Positions 57,797-62,309 of a DNA stretch of 64,000 nucleotides are shown here, piece after piece. Positions within the stretch are counted from its first letter, which is position 1. Each line of letters starts with the position of its first letter. Below the pieces are notes generated by a model. It saw only the letters and a list, made by a program, of their open reading frames with translations, was not told the DNA's origin and searched no databases. Origin of the DNA: Cohaesibacter sp. ES.047 (GTDB lineage: Bacteria; Pseudomonadota; Alphaproteobacteria; Rhizobiales; Cohaesibacteraceae). The DNA lies in NCBI RefSeq assembly GCF_900215505.1, contig NZ_LT907844.1:1054001-1118000 (forward strand), in the 5' to 3' direction. Both the position numbers and the translations under genes were made by a program.

Positions 57797-59143
57797 TTAT
57801 GCCAGTTTGCTCAGAGTATTCATGACCGTCAATCTTGTCGTTATTGCGGTGAAGATAGCGATGAGCAGAATGAGCGCAAAGGTCCCCAGATAGGCTGCGT
57901 AGCCCAACTGGATAACACCAAGCAGAGCCTGCATCTGATCACTTGCTGCCGATCCCTCATCTTGCCGAACAAGCAGTTGCAGGAAAAGAAAGATAACGAT
58001 AGCGATGGCGCCCCCCGCCAGAGATCCCTTGAAACCGAGAGTGAAGAATTTGCGCTGGAACTCTCCGGCGATGAATTTGTTGCTGGCACCAACGAAATGC
58101 AGCACCTCTATCGTCTCTCGATTGCCGGACATGGCCGAACGGGTGGCAAAAATCACGGTCAGGATGGTCGCAGCGATCACCAGAAAGAGGATCGTGAAGC
58201 CGATCATGATAGCTGTATCCGCCATGGACTTGAGCCGGTCGACCCAGAATCGGTGGTTGTCCAGAATCGCACCGGTGACCTGTTGCTGTAGCGATTCGCT
58301 CAGCGCAGGAAAGTCCACGGTGTCGGGGTCTGCGATGGTCAGCTCGATCAGCCGCGGAACAGGCAGGTCGTCAAAGGCCAGATCCAGACCCAGCCATGGT
58401 TCCAGCAGAGCGCCAGACTCGCTTTGACTGAGCAGGGTGGCTGATCCGATGCCTGGCGTTTCGCGGGCGATTCTGACGGCCTTGGCAAGCTCGGCCTCGA
58501 TATCGATGCCTTCGATCTTTCGGATCTGGATCGTTGCGCCACGGGAAATGTCGGACTGCCAATCGTGTGTGGCATCCGAAATGATGGCAACCGCTGCAAC
58601 CGTAAGGGCGGCCAGAAAACTCATGATCGCGATGACCAGTACCAGCGCATGTCCGGCTATCGTGCCTTTGGGGACAATCGGGCCGGTCTGGTTGCCGATG
58701 GCAAAATTGGCGGCCGTGGCAAGCACTTTCTGCTGCCCGGATTTGCGTTGGGATTTCGCTTTTTTCTTTTTTTCTTTTTTGGGCAGCGGGCGTGCTGGCG
58801 CTCTGGATGATGTGTCGATTACACCCTCGCGCGGTATGTCGGGGGAGGGCGCAAAAGCCTCTTGGCCAACTCGTCCGATATTGGGGCCCATGCGCTGCTG
58901 TCCGCTAGGAACAGGTGTATAGACGGGTGCGGCATGGGGTAACGGCGCGTGTGGACGCCCCAGTTCATCCCGCCCCATTGCGGAGCGGTTTGGTTCTGCG
59001 TTGCCCTGATCCGTGCGTCCTTGATCGCCTCTCATACGGTCATTCGCGCGTTCATTTCCGCGTTCGGGGGCTCGGTCGGGGGGACGTGATGGGCTGTCCG
59101 GGTCTTTTCGATTGCCTGCCATAGATGCTCTCCGCTCATTCAT
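57797..59143 (-). CDS. ftsX: Cell-division protein FtsX with long N-terminal extension
   Basis: A 448-residue inner-membrane protein, longer than the usual 300-350. The first ~160 residues are cytoplasmic and disordered, rich in Arg, Asp, Pro and Gly (GNERANDRMRGDQGRTDQGN), with a basic patch PKKEKKKKAKSQRK before the first helix (about 165-188). A periplasmic domain and three further helices complete the FtsX plan. With FtsE it controls murein hydrolases at the septum. It overlaps ftsE by 8 bp. A second ATG seven codons on (59122) also has a good ribosome site. Confidence 0.92.
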   Translation of the reverse strand: MNERRASMAGNRKDPDSPSRPPDRAPERGNERANDRMRGDQGRTDQGNAEPNRSAMGRDELGRPHAPLPHAAPVYTPVPSGQQRMGPNIGRVGQEAFAPSPDIPREGVIDTSSRAPARPLPKKEKKKKAKSQRKSGQQKVLATAANFAIGNQTGPIVPKGTIAGHALVLVIAIMSFLAALTVAAVAIISDATHDWQSDISRGATIQIRKIEGIDIEAELAKAVRIARETPGIGSATLLSQSESGALLEPWLGLDLAFDDLPVPRLIELTIADPDTVDFPALSESLQQQVTGAILDNHRFWVDRLKSMADTAIMIGFTILFLVIAATILTVIFATRSAMSGNRETIEVLHFVGASNKFIAGEFQRKFFTLGFKGSLAGGAIAIVIFLFLQLLVRQDEGSAASDQMQALLGVIQLGYAAYLGTFALILLIAIFTAITTRLTVMNTLSKLA

Positions 59144-59795
59144 AGATGTAGAGCGCGCCGTCGTTCAACACAATGCGGCGAGCGTCGACCTGATCCATCA
59201 GGCCTGTGTCATGGGTGGCGATGACGATCGAGGTTCCCGATCGATGCAGCTCGACGAACAGGCGCAGCAACCGCCGGGCCAGAATGGGGTCCACGTTCCC
59301 TGTCGGCTCGTCGGCAAGCAGCAGCTTGGGGCGTGAGATCAGGGCCCGGGCGATGGCGGCGCGCTGCTTTTCTCCGCCGGACATGACGGGCGGGTAGACA
59401 TGCATGCGATGGCCAAGACCGACCCATTGAAGAAGCTCGGCCACATCCGTGCGATAGTCCTGCTCGGACAGTCCCTGAACGCGCAAGGGCAAGGCCACAT
59501 TCTCGAAGGTGGTGAGATGGTTAAGCAGGCGAAACTCCTGAAAGACGAAACCGATCTGGCGACGCAGACCCGACAGTTCGTCGTGGCTCAGCCGTGCGGT
59601 GTCCTTGTTGAACACCTTGATCAGGCCCCGATTGGGTTTGAGGGACAGGAACATCAATTGCAAAAGGGACGTCTTGCCTGCTCCCGAGGGGCCGGACAGA
59701 AACTGGAAGGAATTGGGTGGAATGTGGAAAGACACATCGCGCAGCACTTCCTGCCCCATGCCATATCTTAATCCAACATTTTCAAACCGAATCAA
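59136..59795 (-). CDS. ftsE: Cell-division ATP-binding protein FtsE
   Basis: A 219-residue ABC ATPase. Walker A is GPSGAGKTSLLQLM, the signature MSGGEKQRAAIARAL and Walker B LLLADEPTGNVD, all FtsE-type. The start is the TTG at 59795, preceded by GAAGGAA 7 nt upstream, which gives the family length; the open frame reaches 59879 without similarity. It pairs with FtsX. It is divergent from the repeat-containing zinc-ribbon gene. Confidence 0.93.
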   Translation of the reverse strand: MIRFENVGLRYGMGQEVLRDVSFHIPPNSFQFLSGPSGAGKTSLLQLMFLSLKPNRGLIKVFNKDTARLSHDELSGLRRQIGFVFQEFRLLNHLTTFENVALPLRVQGLSEQDYRTDVAELLQWVGLGHRMHVYPPVMSGGEKQRAAIARALISRPKLLLADEPTGNVDPILARRLLRLFVELHRSGTSIVIATHDTGLMDQVDARRIVLNDGALYIYE

Positions 59796-59988
59796 ACGAT
59801 GCGTTCCTTCTCTCTGTACGATGCAGAGGCTGCAAGAATTGTCACTCCGCTTTGTAGGGCTTGTTACTAGCCTTGGCAAAGCGTTAACGGCTGTTATTCT
59901 ATGTTGTGGATGATTCGCCTGTTTTCAATCAATCCATAGCAGGCGGCAAAGCGTTTTTCGCCGTTCTTGTCAGGGCCACGACAGACCC

Positions 59989-61146
59989 ATGAAAATTACT
60001 TGTCCCAATTGTACCACAAGCTATCAGGTGCCGGACGGGTCGATCGGTGCGGCCGGGCGCAATGTGCGTTGTGCGACCTGCGGCGAGACGTGGCATGCAG
60101 AGGTCGAACCGGGTGATGCTGGCGATACTGCCAAGCCTGAAGTTGTCCTGCCCGAAGCCGAAGAGCAAAGCCAGGACGATATCGACGCACTGTTCGACAG
60201 CCCGTCTGATGCCGGAGAAGAACAGAGCCAGGACGATATCGACGCGTTGTTTGACAGCCCGTCCGATGCCGGCGAAGAACAGAGCCAGGACGATATCGAC
60301 GCGCTGTTTGACAGCCCGTCCGATGCCGGAGAAGAACAGAGCCAGGATGATATTGATGCTCTGTTTGACAGCCCCTCGAGTGGTGAGGAGCAAAATCAGG
60401 ACGACATTGATGCCTTGTTCGACAGCCCGTCCGATGCCGGTGAAGAGCAAAGTCAGGATGATGTCGATGCGATGTTCGCCAGCGGCGACGCAATAGACGC
60501 GCCTGCGCAGGACAGGGACGACAGCCCGATTGAGCCGATCGTGGTCAGCGCAGACGATGCGAACCAGATGTCCGGAGCGCAAGTCGTCGATATGATGAAT
60601 GCGGCATCGTTCGAAGCGCAGAAGGTCATCGCCAAGGGCAAGGATGCCGACTCCAAGGCTAGTCGACGCAAACGCCGTCGGCGCAAGGGCAAGGCAAAAA
60701 CCGGCGATGCGCTGCCCAATTCAAACAAAGAGTGGGCCATTGGCTCTCTCGCCCTCGTTGCGGCGTTGGCGATTGTGATCGGCCTTTTTGTCGCACCGAA
60801 ATTCTGGGTCAGGACATTCCCTGATCTTGCGTCCTTCTATTCCATGCTGGGAATGCCCGTTAATGTTGCGGGCGTCGATATTGATACGGTTGACGTGCGG
60901 CTCGTGCAGCGCGCGGGGTCTCCCGTGATCTCTGTGGAGGCAGAACTTGTGAATCCAGAGACAGATCCGGTGCTTCTGCCCGCTGTTCAGCTTTCTGTTC
61001 TTGGCAAGGACGACGAGGAGCTTTATTCATGGGCAATCGAGCCCGAGAAAGCTGGCCTGGGTCCTGGTGAGCATAAACGCATAGAATCGTCCATTGCCGC
61101 TCCCTCAAATGCCAAATCCATATCTCTGCGGGTTTTCCATCCATAG
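59989..61146 (+). CDS. MJ0042-type zinc-ribbon protein with tandem QDDIDALF repeats and a membrane helix
   Basis: A 385-residue protein. Residues 1-35 form a zinc ribbon (Cys5/Cys8 and Cys28/Cys31; CPNCTTSYQVPDGSI then VRCATCGETWH). Residues about 58-165 are six copies of a 19-residue acidic unit, EEQSQDDIDALFDSPSDAG. A basic patch (SRRKRRRRKGKAK, about 229-241) precedes a helix (SLALVAALAIVIGLFVAP) and a C-terminal DUF3426-like domain from about 290 on (VRLVQRAGSPVISVEAELVN). Adjacency to ftsE and hpt is common for this family in alphaproteobacteria. The function is unknown. Confidence 0.88.
   Translation: MKITCPNCTTSYQVPDGSIGAAGRNVRCATCGETWHAEVEPGDAGDTAKPEVVLPEAEEQSQDDIDALFDSPSDAGEEQSQDDIDALFDSPSDAGEEQSQDDIDALFDSPSDAGEEQSQDDIDALFDSPSSGEEQNQDDIDALFDSPSDAGEEQSQDDVDAMFASGDAIDAPAQDRDDSPIEPIVVSADDANQMSGAQVVDMMNAASFEAQKVIAKGKDADSKASRRKRRRRKGKAKTGDALPNSNKEWAIGSLALVAALAIVIGLFVAPKFWVRTFPDLASFYSMLGMPVNVAGVDIDTVDVRLVQRAGSPVISVEAELVNPETDPVLLPAVQLSVLGKDDEELYSWAIEPEKAGLGPGEHKRIESSIAAPSNAKSISLRVFHP
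60160..60483 (+). repeat. 57-bp tandem repeat, six copies, within zinc-ribbon gene
   Basis: Units start at 60160, 60217, 60274, 60331 (54 bp), 60385 and 60442 (partial). Copies 2 and 3 are nearly identical at the DNA level, which points to recent expansion by slippage or unequal exchange. The frame is kept in every copy. Codon differences in copies 4-6 show that they are older. Confidence 0.95.
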
Positions 61147-61203: not shown

Positions 61204-61734
61204 ATGACTGACATCATCAATGTCCTCTATGACGAGGACGCGCTCGACCAGCGCAATGCGGAACTTGCTGCCTTGATCGCCGAAGCGGGCTATCAGAAAC
61301 TGCTGGTCATCGCGGTTCTTAAGGGCAGTTTTGTCTTTGCTGCCGATCTGTTGCGTGCCCTGTATCGCGCGGGCGTACCGCTCGAGGTCGAGTTCATGTC
61401 TCTGTCGAGTTATGGGGCTGGCACCAAGAGCTCGGGCAACGTCGAGGTGGTGCGTGATGTGGATGCGGATGTGCGCGACCGGGATATTCTCTTGATTGAT
61501 GACATCCTTGAGTCCGGTCGGACGCTCGCCTTTGCCAAGACCATGCTCAGCGAGCGCGGCGCCTCTCGCGTCGATGTTGCCGTGCTGCTCGACAAGAAGG
61601 GCAAGCGCGTGGCCGAGATTGAAGCTGAATATGTCGGTTTTGATTGTCCCGATAAATTCGTCGTCGGATACGGAATGGACAAGGCGCATATGTATCGCGA
61701 AGTGCCGTTCGTGGGCCATCTTACAGAAATTTGA
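61204..61734 (+). CDS. hpt: Hypoxanthine phosphoribosyltransferase
   Basis: A 176-residue purine-salvage enzyme. The PRPP-binding loop is in RDILLIDDILESGRTLAFA, with the first substrate loop VIAVLKGSFVFAADLLRAL and the flexible loop EVEFMSLSSYGAGTKSSG. It makes IMP or GMP from hypoxanthine or guanine. It is 57 bp downstream of the zinc-ribbon gene and may be co-transcribed with it. Confidence 0.95.
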   Translation: MTDIINVLYDEDALDQRNAELAALIAEAGYQKLLVIAVLKGSFVFAADLLRALYRAGVPLEVEFMSLSSYGAGTKSSGNVEVVRDVDADVRDRDILLIDDILESGRTLAFAKTMLSERGASRVDVAVLLDKKGKRVAEIEAEYVGFDCPDKFVVGYGMDKAHMYREVPFVGHLTEI

Positions 61735-61898: not shown

Positions 61899-62309
61899 AT
61901 GGCCCGAATTCTTCTGACTGAAGACGATGACGGGGTGCGCATGTTCGTGCAACGGGCTTTGATGATTGATGGGCATGATGTGACCACCGCAGAAGACGGC
62001 ACAGATGCTCTGGAAATGCTCGAGAGATGCGATGACGCCTTCGACCTGCTGCTGACCGATATCAAGATGCCGGAGATGGATGGCATCGAACTGGCTTTGA
62101 GCGCAGCAAAAGACTGGCCTGAAATGACCATCTTGATGATGACCGGTTATGCGGATCAGCGCGAGAGGTGTGACAACCTCAATGCGATCGTGCATGACGT
62201 GGTTTCAAAACCCTTTTCCCTCACCGAAATCCGCGGTGCCGTGCGCGATGCGCTTCGTGGTGAGGAAAGTGGCGAGCCTACTTCGATGGCGCACGCCATG
62301 TATGGCTGA
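61899..62309 (+). CDS. cpdR: CpdR-type single-domain response regulator
   Basis: A 136-residue receiver domain without output domain. MARILLTEDDDGVRMFVQRA gives the acidic pair, the phospho-acceptor is Asp54 in DLLLTDIKMPEMDG, the Thr/Ser is in MMTGYADQRER and Lys104 is in VVSKPFSLTEIR. The overall wording matches CpdR, which in its unphosphorylated form directs ClpXP to CtrA and other substrates during the cell cycle. Ribosome site GGGAGTGGGA precedes the ATG. It is followed by a terminator. Confidence 0.9.
   Translation: MARILLTEDDDGVRMFVQRALMIDGHDVTTAEDGTDALEMLERCDDAFDLLLTDIKMPEMDGIELALSAAKDWPEMTILMMTGYADQRERCDNLNAIVHDVVSKPFSLTEIRGAVRDALRGEESGEPTSMAHAMYG

Follow-up and report, generated by a model that had tools for sequence, protein, structure and literature searches.

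Our results support a model in which a zinc-ribbon membrane protein of Cohaesibacter sp. ES.047, encoded in the 64,000-nucleotide stretch of DNA analysed here (the window), is an orthologue of the polar protein ZitP whose linker carries six short peptides of the kind that FliM and CheZ use to dock CheY. We consider the chance slightly better than even that the protein, anchored by PopZ and tethered to the membrane, serves as a multivalent dock for receivers of the CheY type, a role in which the binding itself is something we infer. Relative to the sequence-only reading, the ZitP orthology and the occurrence of the motif in PopZ are new.

The zinc ribbon, the six QDDIDALF-type motifs and the membrane helix noted in that reading were all recovered in the ORF at the stated coordinates by profile searches, TRF and hydropathy (Table 1). 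Residues 1–35 match Pfam Zn_ribbon_4 (E 1.3e-13) and TIGR02098 MJ0042 (E 6.1e-15), and the best PDB match of the ribbon is 2nb9 (E 1.6e-7), labelled uncharacterized in the PDB, which we take to be the ZitP finger. The C-terminal beta domain, probably periplasmic by analogy with ZitP, was assigned to DUF3426 from profile comparison, with 2 of 19 family members matching Pfam DUF3426 at E 0.01. In an AlphaFold model built from ten aligned relatives (mean pLDDT 64.3, pTM 0.32), the ribbon (residues 1–40) is ordered, residues 42 to about 200 are disordered, in keeping with the earlier suggestion that the array segment lacks fixed structure, and the C-terminal beta domain (297–383) is confident; the membrane helix spans 244–268 in the model and about 249–272 by hydropathy. 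The spacers of the array appear as stretches with pLDDT <50 (70–80, 90–99, 109–118 and 128–137), short helix turns fall at motifs 2 and 3 (residues 82–85 and 101–104) and motif 6 lies within a long low-confidence stretch, a pattern that may partly reflect conservation alone. For the C-terminal part, a fold search with the model returned beta-sandwich matches of a generic kind.

Table 1. Features of the ZitP-like gene and its neighbours, in window coordinates
Feature	Position	Strand	Basis or detail
ftsX	57797..59143	-	PF02687 over cut-off; FtsX_Gneg best NCBIfam, below cut-off
ftsE, divergent neighbour	59136..59879	-	TIGR02673 E 3.7e-81, over cut-off
ZitP-like protein with DIDALF array	59989..61146	+	385 aa; profile, synteny, hhalign
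N-terminal zinc ribbon, residues 1-40	59989..60108	+	Pfam, TIGR02098, PDB 2nb9, AlphaFold pLDDT 81-86
Tandem array, 57-nt period, 5.7 copies	60160..60483	+	TRF
Motif 1, QDDIDALF	60172..60195	+	translation, pattern search
Motif 2, QDDIDALF	60229..60252	+	translation, pattern search
Motif 3, QDDIDALF	60286..60309	+	translation, pattern search
Motif 4, QDDIDALF	60343..60366	+	translation, pattern search
Motif 5, QDDIDALF	60397..60420	+	translation, pattern search
Motif 6, QDDVDAMF	60454..60477	+	translation, pattern search
Basic stretch before membrane helix	60664..60699	+	sequence; cytoplasmic side inferred, positive-inside rule
Predicted transmembrane helix, about residues 249-272	60733..60804	+	hydropathy; AlphaFold model
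C-terminal beta domain, DUF3426-like	60877..61137	+	DUF3426 E 9.4e-4, below Pfam cut-off; hhalign; AlphaFold
hpt, hypoxanthine phosphoribosyltransferase	61204..61734	+	TIGR01203 E 4e-49, over cut-off
CpdR-like single-domain receiver	61899..62309	+	profiles, CheY-face alignment

The motifs follow one another at 19, 19, 19, 18 and 19 residues. Chance was ruled out as their origin by shuffling both the window, which holds 6 matches against 0.01 expected (0 of 100 shuffles reached 6), and the acidic segment, in which none of 200,000 shuffles had two or more motifs. CheY-docking peptides of the FliM/CheZ type follow the consensus Q-x-[DE]-[IV]-D-x-L-[LF], which agrees with the CheZ and FliM of this genome and which the array peptides fit, with Met for Leu in motif 6. 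Because the motifs are internal and tandem, versus near the N-terminus in FliM and at the C-terminus in CheZ, we do not class the protein as either; our claim is limited to the array peptide probably working like the FliM/CheZ peptide and does not extend to protein-family membership.

We assign the window protein to ZitP because its gene order (ftsE divergent, hpt downstream), the comparison of profiles and seven residues of the zinc ribbon point the same way. In Caulobacter, changes at C5/C8/C28/C31, R24/R27 and W35 are described as preventing the ZitP finger from localising to the pole with PopZ (PMC5182065; here and below, citations refer to the accessible portions of the articles). The window protein has all seven of these residues with identical numbering, and the basic-patch residues K18 and R34 of ZitP are Ser and Thr; among 55 homologues from the order, R24 is present in 52, R or K27 in 46 and W35 in 55. 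A Cohaesibacter-centred profile of the helix and C-terminal domain aligned by hhalign with seven Asticcacaulis homologues at Prob 99.8 and E 1.9e-30. Eight genomes of Asticcacaulis (Caulobacteraceae) have one PF13717 protein apiece, and at each of the four loci with ORFs listed a divergent ABC gene flanks the zinc-ribbon gene on one side and a phosphoribosyltransferase gene on the other. The neighbours had as best NCBIfam matches FtsE (3/3, E 6e-74 or better) and, for the phosphoribosyltransferases scanned, hypoxanthine(-guanine) phosphoribosyltransferase (3/3), in each case below the curated cut-off. As the sole PF13717 match per genome, the Asticcacaulis protein is probably ZitP. The helix-plus-domain profile finds matches in 236 of the 297 genomes from this order, and 15 of 40 loci have both ftsE and hpt signatures no more than 2.5 kb away, a lower bound from a crude pattern. 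This orthology, drawn from sequence comparison, disagrees with a 2016 report whose accessible portion says that Rhizobiales encode no ZitP orthologue (PMC5182065). A popZ gene is present in this genome, and the window protein would be expected to bind PopZ and to lie at the pole. Membership in GltJ was considered and rejected, the NCBIfam GltJ model scoring 19.5 bits against a cut-off of 450.

Searches for the motif elsewhere lead mainly to chemotaxis proteins. A strict pattern, Q-x-[DE]-[IVM]-D-[AS]-[LIMF]-[LF], occurs in nine places in this genome, namely the six repeats and once in each of three CheZ paralogues (control, 0), and a second pattern that also permits Leu brings in a tenth, within PopZ (control, 0). 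Two of the three CheZ proteins end in the motif, one with the identical C-terminus SQDDIDALFD, and FliM carries a close, canonical variant near its N-terminus, RVLNQEEIDNLLGF (docking-type peptide NQEEIDNLLGF). A third CheZ paralogue (L324:7106-8482, minus strand; L047, L048, L049, L050), with a long acidic tail, has two to five motifs, and a second FliM-domain ORF of the genome (L101:1444-2370, 308 aa) has no CheY-binding motif at its N-terminus. The Leu-permitting pattern matches in 152 of 297 genomes of the order, with one control match seen. Thirty motif loci of the order comprise 26 CheZ genes with a C-terminal motif (25 placed by script and one, L198, by eye), three chance-like matches and one unplaced locus (L200), which codes QDDVDAFF, outside the residue pattern. 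In a wider genome collection, 45 of 60 loci contained a motif-bearing ORF (the other 15 were left out): five are the Cohaesibacteraceae protein, 28 are CheZ-like with one to five copies and a single one is a FliN. The remaining eleven are other proteins; several are long and acidic, and a loose pattern counts as many as 22 copies. The FliN, from a SAR324 bacterium (L208:1575-2465), has five copies at its start by the pattern used and was identified as FliN by Pfam, which placed CheZ over its cut-off for L207 and L211 and under it for L232. The long acidic proteins with 4–22 loose-pattern copies (L213, L230, L231, L233, L244, L249, L251, L260 and L261) belong to Verrucomicrobia, Desulfobacula, a planctomycete and others; the four that were scanned (L213, L230, L231 and L251) had no Pfam match over cut-off.

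The occurrences in CheZ, FliM and FliN argue that the usual context of the motif is proteins that hold CheY. The sequence-only proposal of FliM-like docking is strongly, though indirectly, supported by the identical CheZ C-terminus, the FliM variant and the copies in FliN and other CheZ tails; the case for the CpdR partner attached to it is weak. The known partner of the motif in FliM and FliN is CheY, and both proteins carry it, which speaks against a polar-localisation tag: a motif that binds a non-receiver pole partner common to CheZ, PopZ and ZitP, and so helps to place CheZ. We regard such a tag as very improbable. In Caulobacter both PopZ and ZitP belong to the pole, and Azorhizobium CheZ is polar without CheA, with no anchor named in the accessible text (PMC7750401), but parts of CheZ without the C-terminus still reach the pole (PMC7750401). 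The same source describes the CheY-P-binding region at the CheZ C-terminus as conserved between E. coli and Azorhizobium. A literature search for such arrays or for the motif in PopZ or ZitP, covering titles and abstracts with most subscription papers outside it, found nothing, and a search for the motif string gave chance strings only, among the matches listed.

The predicted anchor, PopZ, bears the same kind of peptide as the array. PopZ is present in 20 of 20 genomes of Cohaesibacteraceae, and its linker has the motif in 19 by the looser pattern [SNTGD][QE]x[DEA][ILVM][DE][AKSNQT][LM][FLM], the twentieth having VDDIDALF; all 18 Cohaesibacter linkers carry QxxLDALF. The pattern was chosen after PopZ sequences had been viewed, and the shuffle control, which uses the same pattern, gave means of 0.00–0.02 and at most 1. 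Outside the family, 17 of 26 linkers match, some in two or three copies; eight are of the Q-x-x-[IL]-D-A-L-[FL] kind and the rest looser, such as SEDDLDKLF. These 26 come from 28 loci of the order, two without a recognisable N-terminus, and the loci are best-scoring or chosen across families, not a random draw. In this genome the PopZ peptide lies at C1:3909450-3909473 (L065); those of other Hyphomicrobiales are in L262-L280 and L292-L319.

Which receiver would dock is suggested by the residues of the binding face. Docking peptides bind the alpha4-beta5-alpha5 face of the receiver, more strongly when it is phosphorylated, and we assume the CheY-face residues to be those of the CheY-FliM and CheY-CheZ structures. 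The canonical CheY gene of this genome adjoins one CheZ; the best solved relative of its product is E. coli CheY (E 2e-41), with Y106, V108, K109, F111, L116 and K119 kept and the differences A90S, K92T, I95V, A99K, A103V, T112N and K122A. Many other receivers share Y106, K109 or F111, but among those aligned (7 of 29 loci were in the wrong frame and left out) CheY alone has Y106, V108 and K119 together. As noted before, ftsE and ftsX adjoin the array gene, and a cpdR-like receiver gene lies less than 1 kb away. Both ftsE and ftsX are on the minus strand; counted from the last base of the ORF, hpt begins after 58 nt and the receiver gene after 753 nt. The best NCBIfam match of this receiver is CpdR, at 105 bits against a cut-off of 180. 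The suggestion that this receiver is the prime partner has been set back, since it lacks Tyr106, Val108 and Lys119, all kept in CheY, and the comparison suggests that CheY fits better.

A related alternative keeps the scaffold and changes the client to DivK, CpdR or a c-di-GMP-responsive CheY-like protein, so that the array would serve cell-cycle or surface-contact signalling instead of chemotaxis. The Caulobacter Cle proteins are CheY-like receivers that bind the FliM motif; for one of them, CleD, an Ile-Asp change (FliM ID57WA in Caulobacter) removes the bound density, so other receivers are possible (PMC7534056). CpdR is described as a direct interactor of PopZ (PMC5182063), the nearness of the CpdR-like gene fits, and this genome has 45 matches to CheY at E 0.001. 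Against this, the CpdR-like receiver is without the three residues that only CheY combines among those aligned, and the motif usually occurs in CheZ and FliM, both of which have CheY as partner; we judge another client unlikely.

The array is present in 18 of 18 Cohaesibacter genomes, and the comparison of copy number between genomes proposed at the outset gave 5–9 copies in the 17 with a complete gene (in G006 the gene is split across two contigs and was counted as a fragment). One other Cohaesibacteraceae genus has an array of 5 copies (G019), and a third has a single NQDDVEALF (G018). In other families, 54 of 56 homologues keep the other domains and have no motif; the 56 are 55 proteins from 56 loci (L144 had no zinc-ribbon ORF) plus L320, again best-scoring or chosen across families, not a random draw. 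The exceptions, L140 (found by pattern) and L320, belong to one genus; in both, the ZitP-like protein carries four copies of a Leu variant (for example, NQADLDALF) at the corresponding place. A third genome of that genus (L116) has no array, and the L168 homologue has one looser SPEELEALF. The 54 motif-free homologues argue that the array is a lineage-specific addition. A tree of 67 C-terminal domains, its deep forks unresolved, is compatible with either one or two origins of the array in Cohaesibacteraceae and family f12. The sequence-only reading held that homologues with the domains but no motif would favour a mere spacer; this is the case for the 54 in other families, whereas Cohaesibacter keeps the array, and motif-free homologues do not by themselves make the array a spacer.

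Comparison of the repeats bears on the same question. For repeat pairs pooled over 19 genes, pS is 0.71 and pN 0.023 in motif codons, and 0.55 and 0.052 in spacers; pS is close to saturation, where the corresponding dN/dS values, 0.010 and 0.054, are unreliable, and the repeat pairs are not independent of one another. Gln and Phe are invariant in 122 repeats. The motif is less variable than the spacer in 15 of 19 genes and more variable in 4, among them the window's own gene (motif pN 0.045, spacer 0.000). Very recent slippage was rejected because copies differ at most synonymous sites; the copies, as judged from these substitutions, are not fresh, their residues have been kept and the spacers are also constrained. 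A flexible acidic spacer, grown by slippage from one motif that alone is important or is vestigial, would fit the variation of 5–9 copies, the single motif of G018, the four genes with less variable spacers and the linkers of the 54 array-free homologues (median 128 residues, range 54–372). We consider it quite unlikely, given that motif codons differ synonymously while their residues are nearly fixed, more so than the spacers in 15 of 19 genes, that the peptide matches CheZ tails exactly and that two other-family genomes have a variant array in the same place.

In the docking model, the cytoplasmic zinc ribbon would bind the polar matrix protein PopZ, as its residues suggest, the single predicted membrane helix would tie the protein to the inner membrane at the pole, and the flexible cytoplasmic linker would have become an array of 5–9 peptides, each docking a CheY-type receiver. 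The most likely client would be phosphorylated CheY, held through the surface to which FliM and CheZ bind. Together with the PopZ peptide, the array could form a high-avidity CheY-P reservoir at the pole, which would determine the amount of CheY-P left free for FliM and open to CheZ; the high local density might buffer CheY-P and compete with FliM and CheZ. Several observations count against this reading: the changes at K18 and R34; the 54 motif-free homologues of other families; the constraint on the spacers, which vary less than the motif in 4 of 19 genes; the seven differences from E. coli CheY and the sharing of Y106, K109 or F111 by many other receivers; and the absence of the motif from all 11 ZitP-like proteins sampled in Asticcacaulis, Ponticaulis and Terasakiella, whose CheZ proteins have one to four copies. 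The effect on motility and the link between ZitP and CheY are likewise putative; since ZitP has a role in pili as well (PMC5182063), the outcome might be something other than motility.

A broader proposal, to which we give somewhat less than an even chance, is that the polar hub of Hyphomicrobiales is a chemotaxis component, in which PopZ, and in some lineages its partner ZitP, present between one and many CheY-docking peptides and the condensate holds CheY-P. If so, the pole condensate would shape the supply of CheY-P to the motor and link polarity with motor switching, and in such lineages ZitP could act on the motor directly. Caulobacter cells without zitP spread less in soft agar, a mutation in fliG (motor switch protein FliG) bypasses the motility defect, and how ZitP promotes swarming is called unclear (PMC5182063); the array cannot by itself explain this defect, as the Caulobacteraceae homologues examined lack the motif. 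The clients of PopZ in Rhizobiales are called unknown (PMC5182065). The ZitP array and the matching PopZ peptide make both questions directly testable. Our findings suggest that the pole may retain or buffer a swimming signal by a mechanism not described so far, in which multivalent docking would capture chemotaxis receivers away from the motor.

Several known systems resemble parts of this arrangement. AgmX/GltJ of Myxococcus xanthus has a related N-terminal zinc ribbon (PDB 7zok, E 0.0028), with Ile at the position of W35, and in Caulobacter this finger shows no polar localisation (PMC5182065). HubP of Vibrio cholerae, like the window protein, is a membrane landmark with acidic cytoplasmic repeats, which bind partners, some of them recruiting chemotaxis proteins (PMC8789113); the likeness is one of description, and we claim no common sequence family. 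ZitP of Caulobacter crescentus, whose Asticcacaulis homologue has the gene order seen in the window, has the same seven residues for PopZ-dependent polar localisation, one membrane helix and a DUF3426-type C-terminal domain (PMC5182065, PMC5182063), whereas the window protein differs in K18 and R34 and in a linker array resembling CheY-docking peptides. Finally, the CheY-binding peptides at the N-terminus of FliM and the C-terminus of CheZ share the consensus of the array, but those proteins carry a copy near the terminus of a soluble or motor protein, whereas the window protein has six internal copies, membrane-tethered and probably polar.
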